Positions 2,285 through 5,334 of a stretch of 5,334 nucleotides of DNA are shown here, piece after piece. Location: assembly GCA_002718095.1 (NCBI GenBank), contig PBDP01000008.1, forward strand, positions 84,466 through 89,799. The letters run 5' to 3'. Origin of the DNA: Chloroflexota bacterium. Its GTDB lineage: Bacteria > Chloroflexota > Dehalococcoidia > Lucifugimonadales > UBA826. Under the pieces are notes generated by a model, which ran no database searches, was not told the DNA's origin, and saw nothing but the letters and a program-made list of their open reading frames with translations. Every line of letters starts with the position of its first letter. Within the stretch, counting starts at the first letter, position 1. Made by a program: the position numbers and the translations under genes.

Positions 2285-3445
2285 ATGAGAAAGTACGTTG
2301 TTATTCTGACATTCCTATTACTAGCCTTAGGGTGTAACAGTGATGCAGAAACCGTCGTACCAGTCACTAGCACTGCTCCTTCACCGACGATCACTGAACA
2401 AACCCCTCTGCCACCGGGACAACAAAAATTACCTCCTCTGCCCGGTGAGCCCCCTATACAACCAGGACAACAGAATTTACCTCCTTTACCTGGTGAGCCT
2501 CCTATGCAACCAGGACAACAAAATTTACCTCCTCTACCTGGTGAGCCTCCTATACAACCAGGACAAGTGATGCAACCTGGACAACTAATTCAACCGTCGG
2601 ATCCTGTTTGGGACGGGCCAACTATTTGCATTAGTCATGGTGTCTTTTACCAACCTCCTGCCTTCGGTGTGGCTATCGGACAACCGATCGCTGATCCGAC
2701 AGCCACCATTCTTGATGACGGACGTATTCGTCTTTACGCCTTTGCTCAAGAAATCGGAATTGTCAGCGCCGTGTCCGACAACGGCCGAGTATTTTCTGAA
2801 GAGTCAGGGGTACGGATTCCGGGCACTGAGGCGGGACAGCCGCGAGTTTGGCGTCTTCCAGACGGACGATGGAGGATGTATGTAAGCAAGGTCAAGGAGA
2901 TTGCCTCATTTACCAGCGACGACGGTCTCAATTTCATCAAAGATCCAGGCGTTCGTTTGACGGCTCAAGCCGCCGGTTTACCGGCCATCAGTAGCCCGTC
3001 TATCGTCGAGGTCGAGCCAGGACTATGGCGGATGTATTATTCTACTTTGGCAGTTCCAGGTACGGGACCGGGAGGGAAACGTTCCGGCAGCGCTACCTCT
3101 ACTGACCTCCTTGAATGGAAAGTGGACCCCGGATGGCGTCTGGGAGAAGGTGCTACATATCTCACGGAATCGGCTGAGCACCCATTCCCAGTGGTTGCAC
3201 CTGATGGATCAGTTTCGCTGTTCTATGGCAAGTTCCAAGCTTCGCAAGGTAGTGCCCCTGATGGTCTCTGGCGCGCTACATCAGTCGACGGTTTAACTTT
3301 TACTGATGAAGCTTATACTGGTCTCTACTTCGGGAACGACCCCGAAGTGCTCATGTTGCCGAACGGTGAAAGAATTATTTACTACGGAGACTTTGACCCC
3401 GCGATTGGAGGGCAATTGCTTTCAGGGACTTGTACTGAATGGTAA
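2285..3445 (+). CDS. Predicted lipoprotein with proline-rich repeats and a beta-propeller-like domain
   Basis: This 386-residue protein starts with a short signal peptide (MRKYVVILTFLLLALGC) whose probable lipidated residue is Cys17. The lipobox A-L-G-C is slightly unusual, with Leu at -2 rather than -3. Residues 18-43 are Ser/Thr/Pro-rich. Residues 44-91 are three 16-residue repeats of the form PGQQNLPPLPGEPPIQ, then two short PGQ-x-x-Q units, forming a likely extended stalk. Residues 109-386 look like a propeller of about five blades. Recurrent elements are 'DG-x-x-R-x-Y' (DDGRIRLY 144-151, DGRWRMY 193-199, GLWRMYY 246-252) and 'S-x-DG-x-x-F' (SDNGRVF 164-170, SDDGLNF 211-217, SVDGLTF 333-339), some followed by GVR. 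This recalls GH43/GH32-like and sialidase-like folds, but no catalytic triad could be confirmed. Cys115 and Cys383 sit at the two ends of the domain and could close the ring. The propeller part is markedly GC-richer than its neighbours (38/60 at 2821-2880 against 10/60 at 1921-1980), suggesting acquisition by transfer. The function is unknown. Confidence 0.85.
   Translation: MRKYVVILTFLLLALGCNSDAETVVPVTSTAPSPTITEQTPLPPGQQKLPPLPGEPPIQPGQQNLPPLPGEPPMQPGQQNLPPLPGEPPIQPGQVMQPGQLIQPSDPVWDGPTICISHGVFYQPPAFGVAIGQPIADPTATILDDGRIRLYAFAQEIGIVSAVSDNGRVFSEESGVRIPGTEAGQPRVWRLPDGRWRMYVSKVKEIASFTSDDGLNFIKDPGVRLTAQAAGLPAISSPSIVEVEPGLWRMYYSTLAVPGTGPGGKRSGSATSTDLLEWKVDPGWRLGEGATYLTESAEHPFPVVAPDGSVSLFYGKFQASQGSAPDGLWRATSVDGLTFTDEAYTGLYFGNDPEVLMLPNGERIIYYGDFDPAIGGQLLSGTCTEW
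2414..2593 (+). repeat. Three 48-bp in-frame tandem repeats plus two 18-bp partial units
   Basis: Full units lie at 2414-2461, 2462-2509 and 2510-2557. Each encodes 16 residues, differing mainly at a Lys/Asn and at an Ile/Met position. Two shortened 18-base units follow at 2558-2575 and 2576-2593, encoding PGQVMQ and PGQLIQ. The second and third full units are nearly identical at the DNA level, which indicates recent duplication. The unit is a multiple of three, so copy-number change would lengthen or shorten the stalk without a frameshift. Confidence 0.95.
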
Positions 3446-3450
3446 GCAAT

Positions 3451-3487
3451 GTGGACCGGGTGGGCTAGAACTCACGACCGTCCGATT
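3451..3487 (-). pseudogene. tRNA-Lys 3'-half remnant (candidate displaced attachment site)
   Basis: These 37 bases align with 5234-5271, the 3' half of the intact tRNA-Lys gene, in the same orientation. There is one missing base (opposite A5246) and one substitution (A3467 for C5251). The copied part runs from the 3' end of the acceptor stem through the T arm and variable loop to the 3' strand of the anticodon stem, and stops at the anticodon loop. The missing base and the change disturb the T arm, and the CCA end is not preserved, so it cannot be a working tRNA. It begins 5 bases after the stop codon of the upstream lipoprotein gene. A break within the anticodon region is typical of integrase-mediated recombination at tRNA genes; a decayed tRNA duplication is the alternative. 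Confidence 0.85.
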
Positions 3488-3518
3488 TTTGAATAATATT
3501 TATTTTTGCTTATTATCT

Positions 3519-3524
3519 TATAAT
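3519..3524 (+). promoter_or_regulatory. Consensus -10 box (TATAAT) before the second lipoprotein gene
   Basis: A perfect TATAAT lies about 70 bases upstream of the preferred ATG at 3595. No good -35 hexamer lies 16-18 bases upstream of it; TTGAAT at 3489-3494 is too far at 24 bases. The surrounding DNA is very AT-rich, so a chance match is possible. If used, the transcript starts near 3531, after the alternative ATG at 3523, which supports the internal start. Confidence 0.35.
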
Positions 3525-3594
3525 GACACATAATATATTCTTATTATCAAATAAATATTATCCGATTTTATTTAAAAGGTTATATCGTTTTCTG

Positions 3595-5178
3595 ATGTCA
3601 AAATTTTTTGTTTTTACATTTCTTCTGTTTATTATTTCTTGTTCTAGTACAAATAGTGAGCAAGTTGAAAATCATAAAATAATCCAAATTGACCCCATTG
3701 AAACCATAGACACAGTTCAAATCGATTCGATCGAAAACATAGGCATAGTTCAAACACAAAATGAAGAAAAATTATCCGAAAGAAATGTAAATGTAGAATG
3801 TATTTTGCATGAAAATAAAAATACAATATCTTGTAAAGCTAAGTCATATTCACAAAATGCAGTGTTAAAGTGGTCATCAAACGTAACTTCTAAAACTATG
3901 TCTGGAACTTCAAATTTTAATTTTCAAATTGAAACCCCAAACCCTAGAGCTGTTATAACGTTAGAAGTATGTCAAGGTGATACTTGCGACAAAACCACAT
4001 CTGAAATAGATATGTCTTTTATAGAGTTTACGAAAAAATCACCTGATCAAATTTCAGATACTAATAAAAATACACTCCTGAGAGACTCATTTTTTAATGA
4101 ATACGAATGTGCAAATAATAGTAAAAATAATTTTTCAAAATTTTATCCCATAAGATTAATCGAGGAGATTGAACCTATGGGTAAACTTAATGCTGGTAGT
4201 GGGCATGTTACTCCAACCGACCATCTATACATAAAAAGAAATCCAGATGCAATATCAGAAGACAATAAGTATTTTATCCTCTCACCTTCATCAGGACATA
4301 TTGTTCGCATCACAAGGCAAGAAAACGATCAATATTTATATGGTGAATACAGTGGACAAGAAAATGATTATTCTGTTGTTCCTGATCATCGTATATTAAT
4401 AATGCATTCATGTAATCTTATGACAGTATTTATTCATTTAGGTGAATTGCATCCAACAATAATTGAGCGTACCGGCAAAATAAATCTAGGTGATAGTTGG
4501 TCTGCATCTGATCTAAATTCAGCCATAAAATTAAATACAGGTGATCCTATAGCCAGATTTGGAGACAATATTCTTGACTGGAGTGTTCACGACAGTAATA
4601 TGATACTTGATGGATTTTTAAATCCTGAACGATATCGACAAGCAGAGCCATGGAAAATCCATACTGTAGATCCTTTTCAATACTTCAACTCTGATGACAA
4701 AGAATTATTACTTAGCAAAGTTAAGAGAATTAAAGAACCGTTATCCGGTAAAATAGATTATGATATTGAAGGAAAGATTATTGGAAATTGGTTTCTAGAA
4801 GGAACTGATTATTTAGATGAAAATAAATTAGAAAGTGATTACTGGGCAGGCCATTTAGCTATTGGATATCATCATATATATCCAGATCATCAAATATTAT
4901 CAGTTGGTCGTAATATTGGTATTGATGAAAATATATATAATAAAGCTTGGGGTGTATTCCGATTAGAAGGACCAGATATTGCAACAATTGGAAAAGTTTC
5001 TAATGAAATAGAATATAAAATGTATTCTGATTCTGGGAATATTCTAGGAGATGACTTATTAGGTAGGTTACTAATAAGTCATTTAGGAAACAGATCACTT
5101 CAAGTAGAAGTCTTTAGTGTGAACTCAAATAATAACGTATTAAAATTCACAGACAATTCTAAAATATACATAAGATAA
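3595..5178 (+). CDS. Predicted lipoprotein with Ig-like region and M23-like (duplicated hybrid motif) domain
   Basis: The frame is open from an ATG at 3523, but the ATG at 3595 is preferred. It places a classic lipoprotein signal peptide (MSKFFVFTFLLFIISC, Cys16 after I-I-S) at the N-terminus, whereas the longer form adds 24 residues in front of it. AAAAGG at 3574-3579 is a distant ribosome-binding site. The 527-residue product has a linker with two 11-residue repeats (31-52). A region at about 65-140 then has four cysteines (69, 80, 126, 131) and alternating strands, like an Ig/PKD fold. A domain at about 185-360 follows, with GSGHVTPTDHLYIK (201-214), PSSGHIVRI (231-239), HSCNLMTVFIHLGEL (271-285) and NTGDPIARFG (314-323). 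This order resembles an M23-type barrel, but the paired H-x-H catalytic motif is not seen, so peptidase activity is doubtful. The C-terminal part carries GKIDYDIEGKIIGNWF (385-400). The gene is AT-rich like the left cluster. The role is unknown; an outer-membrane-anchored binding or envelope function is inferred. Confidence 0.82.
   Translation: MSKFFVFTFLLFIISCSSTNSEQVENHKIIQIDPIETIDTVQIDSIENIGIVQTQNEEKLSERNVNVECILHENKNTISCKAKSYSQNAVLKWSSNVTSKTMSGTSNFNFQIETPNPRAVITLEVCQGDTCDKTTSEIDMSFIEFTKKSPDQISDTNKNTLLRDSFFNEYECANNSKNNFSKFYPIRLIEEIEPMGKLNAGSGHVTPTDHLYIKRNPDAISEDNKYFILSPSSGHIVRITRQENDQYLYGEYSGQENDYSVVPDHRILIMHSCNLMTVFIHLGELHPTIIERTGKINLGDSWSASDLNSAIKLNTGDPIARFGDNILDWSVHDSNMILDGFLNPERYRQAEPWKIHTVDPFQYFNSDDKELLLSKVKRIKEPLSGKIDYDIEGKIIGNWFLEGTDYLDENKLESDYWAGHLAIGYHHIYPDHQILSVGRNIGIDENIYNKAWGVFRLEGPDIATIGKVSNEIEYKMYSDSGNILGDDLLGRLLISHLGNRSLQVEVFSVNSNNNVLKFTDNSKIYIR
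3685..3750 (+). repeat. Two diverged 33-bp tandem repeats in the lipoprotein linker
   Basis: Units at 3685-3717 and 3718-3750 both begin CAAAT and end AGTT, and encode QIDPIETIDTV and QIDSIENIGIV. They directly follow the lipidated N-terminus and probably form the tether between membrane and domains. The DNA copies have diverged more than the 48-bp repeats in the neighbouring lipoprotein gene, so this duplication looks older. Confidence 0.8.
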
Positions 5179-5206
5179 TCACCACTAGTGTTCAAAAAGA
5201 TTACTA

Positions 5207-5329
5207 TTTAGCTACGATATGGACAAATTTGTGGTGGACCGGGTGAGGCTCGAACTCACGACCGTCCGATTAAGAGTCGGATGCTCTACCAACTGAGCTA
5301 CCGGTCCGAAATGCTGATTTTAGCTACGA
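5207..5329. repeat. 11-bp direct repeat flanking the tRNA gene
   Basis: TTTAGCTACGA occurs at 5207-5217 and again at 5319-5329, 112 bases apart, bracketing the tRNA-Lys gene. In this AT-rich DNA a repeat with four G/C positions this close is unlikely, though not impossible, by chance. It may be a spacer duplicated with a tRNA unit, or part of a recombination footprint. Its function is unknown. Confidence 0.5.
5232..5307 (-). tRNA. tRNA-Lys, anticodon CTT, with encoded CCA
   Basis: The minus strand folds into a complete 76-base cloverleaf. The acceptor stem GGACCGG pairs perfectly with CCGGTCC, and the D stem is GCTC/GAGC with loop AGTTGGTA. The anticodon stem TCCGA/TCGGA encloses loop CTCTTAA, giving anticodon CTT at 5272-5274, which reads the Lys codon AAG. 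The variable loop has five bases, and the T stem GTGAG/CTCAC encloses TTCGAGC. The discriminator is A, and CCA is encoded at 5232-5234. The gene converges on the lipoprotein gene that ends at 5178, with 53 bases between them and no clear hairpin-plus-T-run terminator on either strand. A 10-base palindrome (ACAAATTTGT, 5223-5232) touches the 3' end. Its 3' half is duplicated at 3451-3487, which marks this gene as a likely integration site. Confidence 0.97.
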
Positions 5330-5334
5330 AATCT

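Follow-up and report, generated by a model that had tools for sequence, protein, structure and literature searches.

Cis-mobilizable elements (CIMEs), which have been described as decayed ICEs or IMEs (PMC5704250), carry neither integration nor transfer genes, keep both attL and attR, and are found in tandem with other elements at the end of target genes such as those encoding tRNAs. A tandem layout bounded by a repeat of the 3' end of an RNA gene also characterises the ssrA islands of Dehalococcoides, 15 of which are without an integration module (PMC3146451); their recombinase is of the serine (Ccr-like) type, their target is the tmRNA gene and their repeats are 20 bp long. In the additive flexible island of Ca. 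Methylopumilus, located at tRNA-Lys(ctt), the end of the tRNA-Lys gene is repeated again and again, with accessory genes between the copies, the size given in the part of the paper drawn upon here ranging from 330 bp and one gene upwards (PMC10872708). Tycheposons are likewise cargo elements at tRNA genes of aquatic bacteria, with a tyrosine recombinase and a size of 4-200 kb in the portions of the published descriptions considered (PMC10872708, PMC11389934), while CALINs share the logic of short cassettes moved by an integrase encoded elsewhere, by means of attC sites and integron integrases (PMC11389934). Finally, Islander (PMC4383910) looks for an intact tRNA gene with a same-orientation 3' fragment downstream of it, and requires an integrase inside or overlapping the island and a length of 2-200 kb.

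The locus considered here lies in the final 5334 bases of contig C8 of the host genome (G000; 1.44 Mb in 10 contigs, low in GC and incomplete at 94.6%); this whole stretch is called the window below, and the relatives compared with it were sampled as one incomplete genome per species. A segment of 1.74 kb within the window (element A) is likely to be what decay has left of a small element that targeted a tRNA gene, carried one lipoprotein gene and had no integrase of its own, and is best read as a decayed member of a class of one- or two-gene cassettes present at several tRNA genes of the family. These cassettes differ from CIMEs in being phage-derived, in holding one or two genes and in carrying an element-specific pair of words at both ends; from the ssrA islands in their tyrosine-integrase type arms and in the use of several tRNA genes; from Tycheposons, as far as the portions consulted describe them, in their size (1.4-1.7 kb) and the absence of a recombinase; and from CALINs in that the attachment site consists of a tRNA core and arm words. 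The Methylopumilus island belongs to unrelated bacteria, and neither arm words nor a helper phage are described in the part of that paper considered. Within the part of the literature covered, and with no claim to priority, three features appear to be new: how small the elements are, the derivation of their ends from phages, and words that match at the two ends and are specific to each element.

ARAGORN finds a single intact tRNA in the window, a tRNA-Lys(CTT) at 5232-5307 on the minus strand, and Rfam concurs (73.5 bits); this gene would be the restored attachment site. A displaced 3' part of the same tRNA, the putative attL remnant, is present on the minus strand at 3451-3487: its local alignment with 5234-5271 gives 36 identities over 38 columns in the same orientation, the differences being one substitution (C to A, at the conserved G57 of the T-loop) and one single-base gap, and the score of 64 compares with a maximum of 25 in 300 dinucleotide shuffles. 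The direct repeat pointed out in the first-pass annotation, with its one indel and one substitution, is thus confirmed, as is its assignment to the 3' half of tRNA-Lys(CTT). The fragment starts shortly after the anticodon and stops close to the 3' end, with a 1-base deletion, and ARAGORN detects no tRNA at 3451; since the substitution affects a conserved T-loop G and the CCA is lost, this copy is considered the decaying one. It is located 3' of tRNA-Lys, the layout left by integration at the 3' end of a tRNA gene, and no further tRNA-Lys fragment was found within the window. An old tandem duplication of tRNA-Lys, whose second copy decayed to the 3' half beside a lipoprotein gene that is an ordinary neighbour, has been weighed against integration; a diverged fragment whose right side shows no relationship to the element arms is what a duplication would allow, but the identity is high as far as one edge and then stops, and no 5' half was found anywhere. 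Taken with the gene distribution, the left flank and the sister elements described below, these features make a duplication quite improbable.

The segment between the two tRNA copies (3488-5231) measures 1744 bp, in line with the interval of about 1.8 kb estimated earlier, and is present in single copy in the genome. ORF and domain analysis assigns it one gene and no recombinase: the sole long ORF between the copies runs from 3523 to 5178, its ATG at 3598 being followed by a lipobox, and the cargo gene (3598-5178, plus strand) encodes a lipoprotein of 526 aa belonging to no known family, so that the lipoprotein is, as first claimed, the only gene bracketed by the repeats. An AlphaFold model of this protein was set aside (mean pLDDT 36). 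Homologues were recovered from four of the 59 other genomes searched, all four among the 44 genomes of the order outside the family and none among the 15 of the same family; in the genomes where they occur no bracketing by tRNA fragments or matched words is visible, and the protein finds no match in viral contigs. The first-pass annotation had named conservation of the lipoprotein gene across the clade, beside a decaying second tRNA-Lys, as what would indicate duplication; its absence from the whole same-family sample, and its presence in four more distant genomes, run counter to that reading.

When the segment is set beside the published definitions, it shares with CIMEs the absence of integration and transfer genes, its only ORF being that of the lipoprotein, and with the Islander scheme the intact tRNA and the same-orientation 3' fragment downstream of it; Islander would nevertheless reject it, because no integrase lies inside or overlaps it and the distance between the copies is too short. 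It also has no tyrosine recombinase and falls below the 4-200 kb given for Tycheposons in the portions of those papers considered. Integrase-less one-gene elements shorter than 2 kb would be missed because the published tRNA-island filters exclude them.

The left flank of element A retains the tRNA-proximal part of an arm (5175-5231), which aligns with the left arm of the attP of a viral contig (L091) and with an element end on host contig C5 over 57-58 positions, scoring 49-52 against a shuffle maximum of 26-27; such a phage attP-like flank would not be expected from a duplication of the tRNA. This arm contains the conserved motif TTTAGCTACGA (TCGTAGCTAAA on the other strand) at 5207-5220, which recurs at 5319-5332, in the phage arms and in the arms of a relative (G007), and no arm word is found inside it. 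On the 5' side of the tRNA, positions 5308-5334 open the right arm of another, second element, whose continuation on contig C10 includes two copies of the word CGGCCA and, from a phage integrase gene, the 3' tail. No tandem word pair could be recognised in the window, where the best four-word score is 29/36 and is reached by 19 of 60 shuffles; the three intact elements score 36/36, a value which none of 60 shuffles attains. A vestige of the right arm, sought in 3488-3640 against six right arms of the family, did not rise above shuffles, and the inverted 15-mers at 3507-3521 and 5170-5184, tried as arm words, were rejected because true words stand in direct orientation on both arms. Element A hence combines the tRNA 3'-half repeat, a single gene and the lack of an integrase, all typical of the class, with core repeats and an inner left arm that are kept and a right side that is unrecognisable; because the identical tandem word on the two arms is missing, this copy is filed as a decayed relative and not as an intact member.

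An exact search of viral contigs with the motif GCTGATTTTAGCTACGAAAT returned two records, L090 and L091, the same two being returned by a second motif from the element ends. Both encode a tyrosine integrase of 458 aa directly adjoining a tRNA-Trp-like attP with the same arms; the genes of L090 also include one for a terminase small subunit and one that is repressor-like, and among those of L091 is an excisionase-like gene. In L092, a third record, a related integrase adjoins a tRNA-like attP whose arms are the same, and the integrases of L120 and L121 are more distant. The similarity of L091 to the C5 element end extends over 437 bp at 90% and stops at the integrase stop codon; with the window it covers 161 bp at 74% (5175-5332). 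Neither a tRNA-Lys-type attP for this host nor the left-arm subtype of the window was found in the viral contigs; in named genome contigs, a pattern search for the arm motif gave no match and a scan with the integrase alignment confirmed no relative. The attP of L092 (2668-2746) looks chimeric, its 5' half being tRNA-Arg(CCT)-like and its 3' half tRNA-Trp-like, while the 5' halves of the attP of L090 and L091 resemble tRNA-Lys instead; such chimeric halves suggest past switches of the target tRNA.

Intact sister elements are found both in the host and in its relatives. In the host, an integrase-less element of 1.5 kb at tRNA-Trp (G000 C10:1-1531) shows the word TTAGTCCA at both ends and carries two genes, for a membrane protein of 152 aa and a lipoprotein of 182 aa. 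The search of the relatives recovered one tRNA-Lys locus with a perfect copy of the tRNA 3' end, in G007, a genome of the same family as the host and of another genus: the last 50 bases of the tRNA-Lys(CTT) at C12:12129-12204 are repeated at 10687-10736 with 50/50 identity, and the 1392 bp between the repeats contain two ORFs, one of 149 aa for a lipoprotein and one of 114 aa, no integrase, and the word GGACACATT at both ends; in doubled form (GGACACATTTTGGACACATTT) the word occurs at 10860 and 12051 and nowhere else in the G007 genome. At the same tRNA-Lys locus of a sister species (G002), an identical tRNA fragment is followed by a different word, AAGTAGGCAAA, and by different sequence. The presence of different cargo between the same repeats, which had been anticipated as support for integration, is therefore observed in the family at the G007 and G002 tRNA-Lys, if not for the species of the window itself. 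On contig C8 of G007, an integrase-less element of 1.65 kb at tRNA-Glu(TTC), bounded by a 3' fragment of that tRNA, has the word TTTTGCCGTG at both ends and, as its only gene, one for a lipoprotein with a staphylococcal-nuclease domain, and is adjoined by a third, older-looking unit with degenerate words. The recurrence of the same 3'-half geometry, with segments of 1.4-1.7 kb, at the tRNA-Lys and tRNA-Glu of G007 is again not accounted for by duplication, and the reading of the locus as a tRNA-targeted integration is supported at the level of the class by the two tRNA-Lys elements, the tRNA-Trp element and the tRNA-Glu element.

These sister elements also bear on the possibility that the segment remains from a larger prophage or island that belonged to the same family of phages, was never small, and lost its integrase and most of its genes. 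Gene tails do persist at neighbouring ends, since the 3' tail of the excisionase gene is retained at host element ends on C5 and C10 and that of the integrase gene at the C10 end, and the arms are missing in the window copy; the existence of intact sisters of 1.39, 1.5 and 1.65 kb indicates instead a recurring small form with intact ends, and such a history is considered rather unlikely. Of the two options left by the first-pass annotation, a minimal island mobilised in trans or a remnant, each thus captures a part: an integrase-less minimal class exists, and the copy in the window, which lacks the paired words of the intact copies, is a remnant; mobilisation in trans is a proposal for the class as a whole, to which we return below.

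As to the words, each phage arm bears a tandem word with a period of 10-11, identical on both arms of the same phage (TATATCCA in L090, AGGCCA in L091, CCCACACTTT in L092 and TCTCCCA in L120), and the intact cassettes bear a tandem word of 9-11 bp near both ends, which is the same within an element and different between elements. Over seven elements, the true left-right pairing of the words is the best of 5040 permutations, for words that were identified post hoc, after seeing the data, and detected separately on each arm. In the integrases (genes at L090:4447-5820, L091:342-1715, L092:1131-2540 and L120:5001-6377), the N-terminal 85 residues and the remainder have distinct histories: the L090 and L091 products share 98% identity beyond residues 1-85 and 69% within them, and those of L092 and L120 share 37% beyond these residues and 82% within them, the arm words differing within each couple. 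The N-terminal domain has thus moved on its own, apart from the catalytic part. It is established that such N-terminal domains of tyrosine recombinases bind arm sites (PMC8138268), and the words may accordingly be the arm-type sites bound by these domains.

In the host assembly, the last 99 bases of C8, that is most of tRNA-Lys and 27 bp beyond it, are exactly the end of C10, the overlap of the two contigs being of exactly 99 bp; both flanks of tRNA-Lys recur beside tRNA-Trp or tRNA-Trp-like sequences (C10:1503-1607, C10:1-25, C5:450962-451119 and C7:7-151), 89 bp are common to C5 and C10 at the C5 end, in the rsmI region, and attachment sites of the element family contain four of the 20 host contig ends. 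Because the assembly breaks fall in attachment sites, these contig ends and the C8/C10 overlap suggest that alternative arrangements coexist in the sampled population. Two SnoaL-like genes, 92% identical, lie beside two different attachment sites (L047:18704-19195 and L048:6259-6729), both of which lead to rsmI, one locus being present in the assembly in alternative arrangements. Only two tyrosine recombinases, of the XerC/XerD type, were found in the host assembly. A large serine recombinase with Ccr-like similarity (L047:2003-3403), whose N-terminal part gives no resolvase domain hit, adjoins the RNase P RNA gene (1617-1962); Ccr-like integrases also serve the Dehalococcoides islands.

On C5, a left arm and a right arm are joined directly at the word ATACCCA, common to both (L048:4652-4747, corresponding to G000 C5:449651-449746), with the tRNA core missing between the arms, a scar joining two cassettes. 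Repeats of this kind may therefore recombine, and the lipoprotein gene of the window could in principle have entered by homologous recombination between tRNA-flanking repeats, with no integrase involved; given that the homology at the window site is short (24-37 bp) and that the edges of the segment fall at the tRNA 3' half, as left by site-specific recombination, this route is regarded as very improbable. At the edge of another element, a zinc-ribbon segment resembling one encoded in the C5 cassettes is in frame with a peptide-binding SBP_bac_5 protein (L049:301-2523), a chimeric gene apparently made by the array.

To the left of the tRNA fragment, a foreign-looking lipoprotein gene (2285-3445, plus strand) ends 5 bp before it. 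Its GC content of 51.6% is to be compared with 34.5 +/- 2.8 for the genome (mean and s.d. over 315 windows of 1.1 kb); it contains a proline-rich repeat of 48 bp in three copies, and none of 196 genomes of the order has a relative that matches it over the full length. Such a neighbour suggests that the hotspot holds more than one accessory gene. Further left, the pgsA gene at 1661-2221 is a second, divergent copy, the other being at C1:35521; its close relative (63%) is in a genome of a different family (G043), same-family genomes matching it weakly, and the neighbourhood of that relative has no other gene in common with the window, and therefore provides no empty site for comparison.

In an intact member of the class, the two ends are those of the integration region of a temperate phage, arranged outward from the tRNA as the tRNA 3' half (the core), the conserved tRNA-proximal arm and the tandem word of 9-11 bp on each arm. 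In the likely mechanism, a phage or a related element would supply the tyrosine integrase in trans; its catalytic part would cut in the tRNA and its N-terminal arm-binding domain would read the word, and a helper would therefore move only the cassettes bearing its own word. Integration would swap the tRNA 3' half for that of the cassette, leaving the old one as a displaced fragment. In these terms, what the window keeps of such an event is the displaced fragment, the tRNA in its restored form and the inner part of the left arm; because no word pair remains, this copy has probably lost its mobility and is stranded. The general picture of a phage-integrase cassette system, whose members spread among tRNA genes with end words acting as addresses read by the interchangeable N-terminal domain of the helper integrase, is put forward as a tentative proposal, somewhat short of an even chance.

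Should the words act as addresses, one could predict from sequence which phage helps a given cassette, by looking for the integrase N-terminal domain that matches its word, and the movement of integrase-less islands in uncultured bacteria would become testable at the bench. The joint exchange of domain and word would change which helper moves which cassette, and would prevent the excision of adjacent cassettes at the same tRNA as one unit. Such a system, if real, would explain the turnover of single lipoprotein and membrane-protein genes at the tRNA genes of small genomes.
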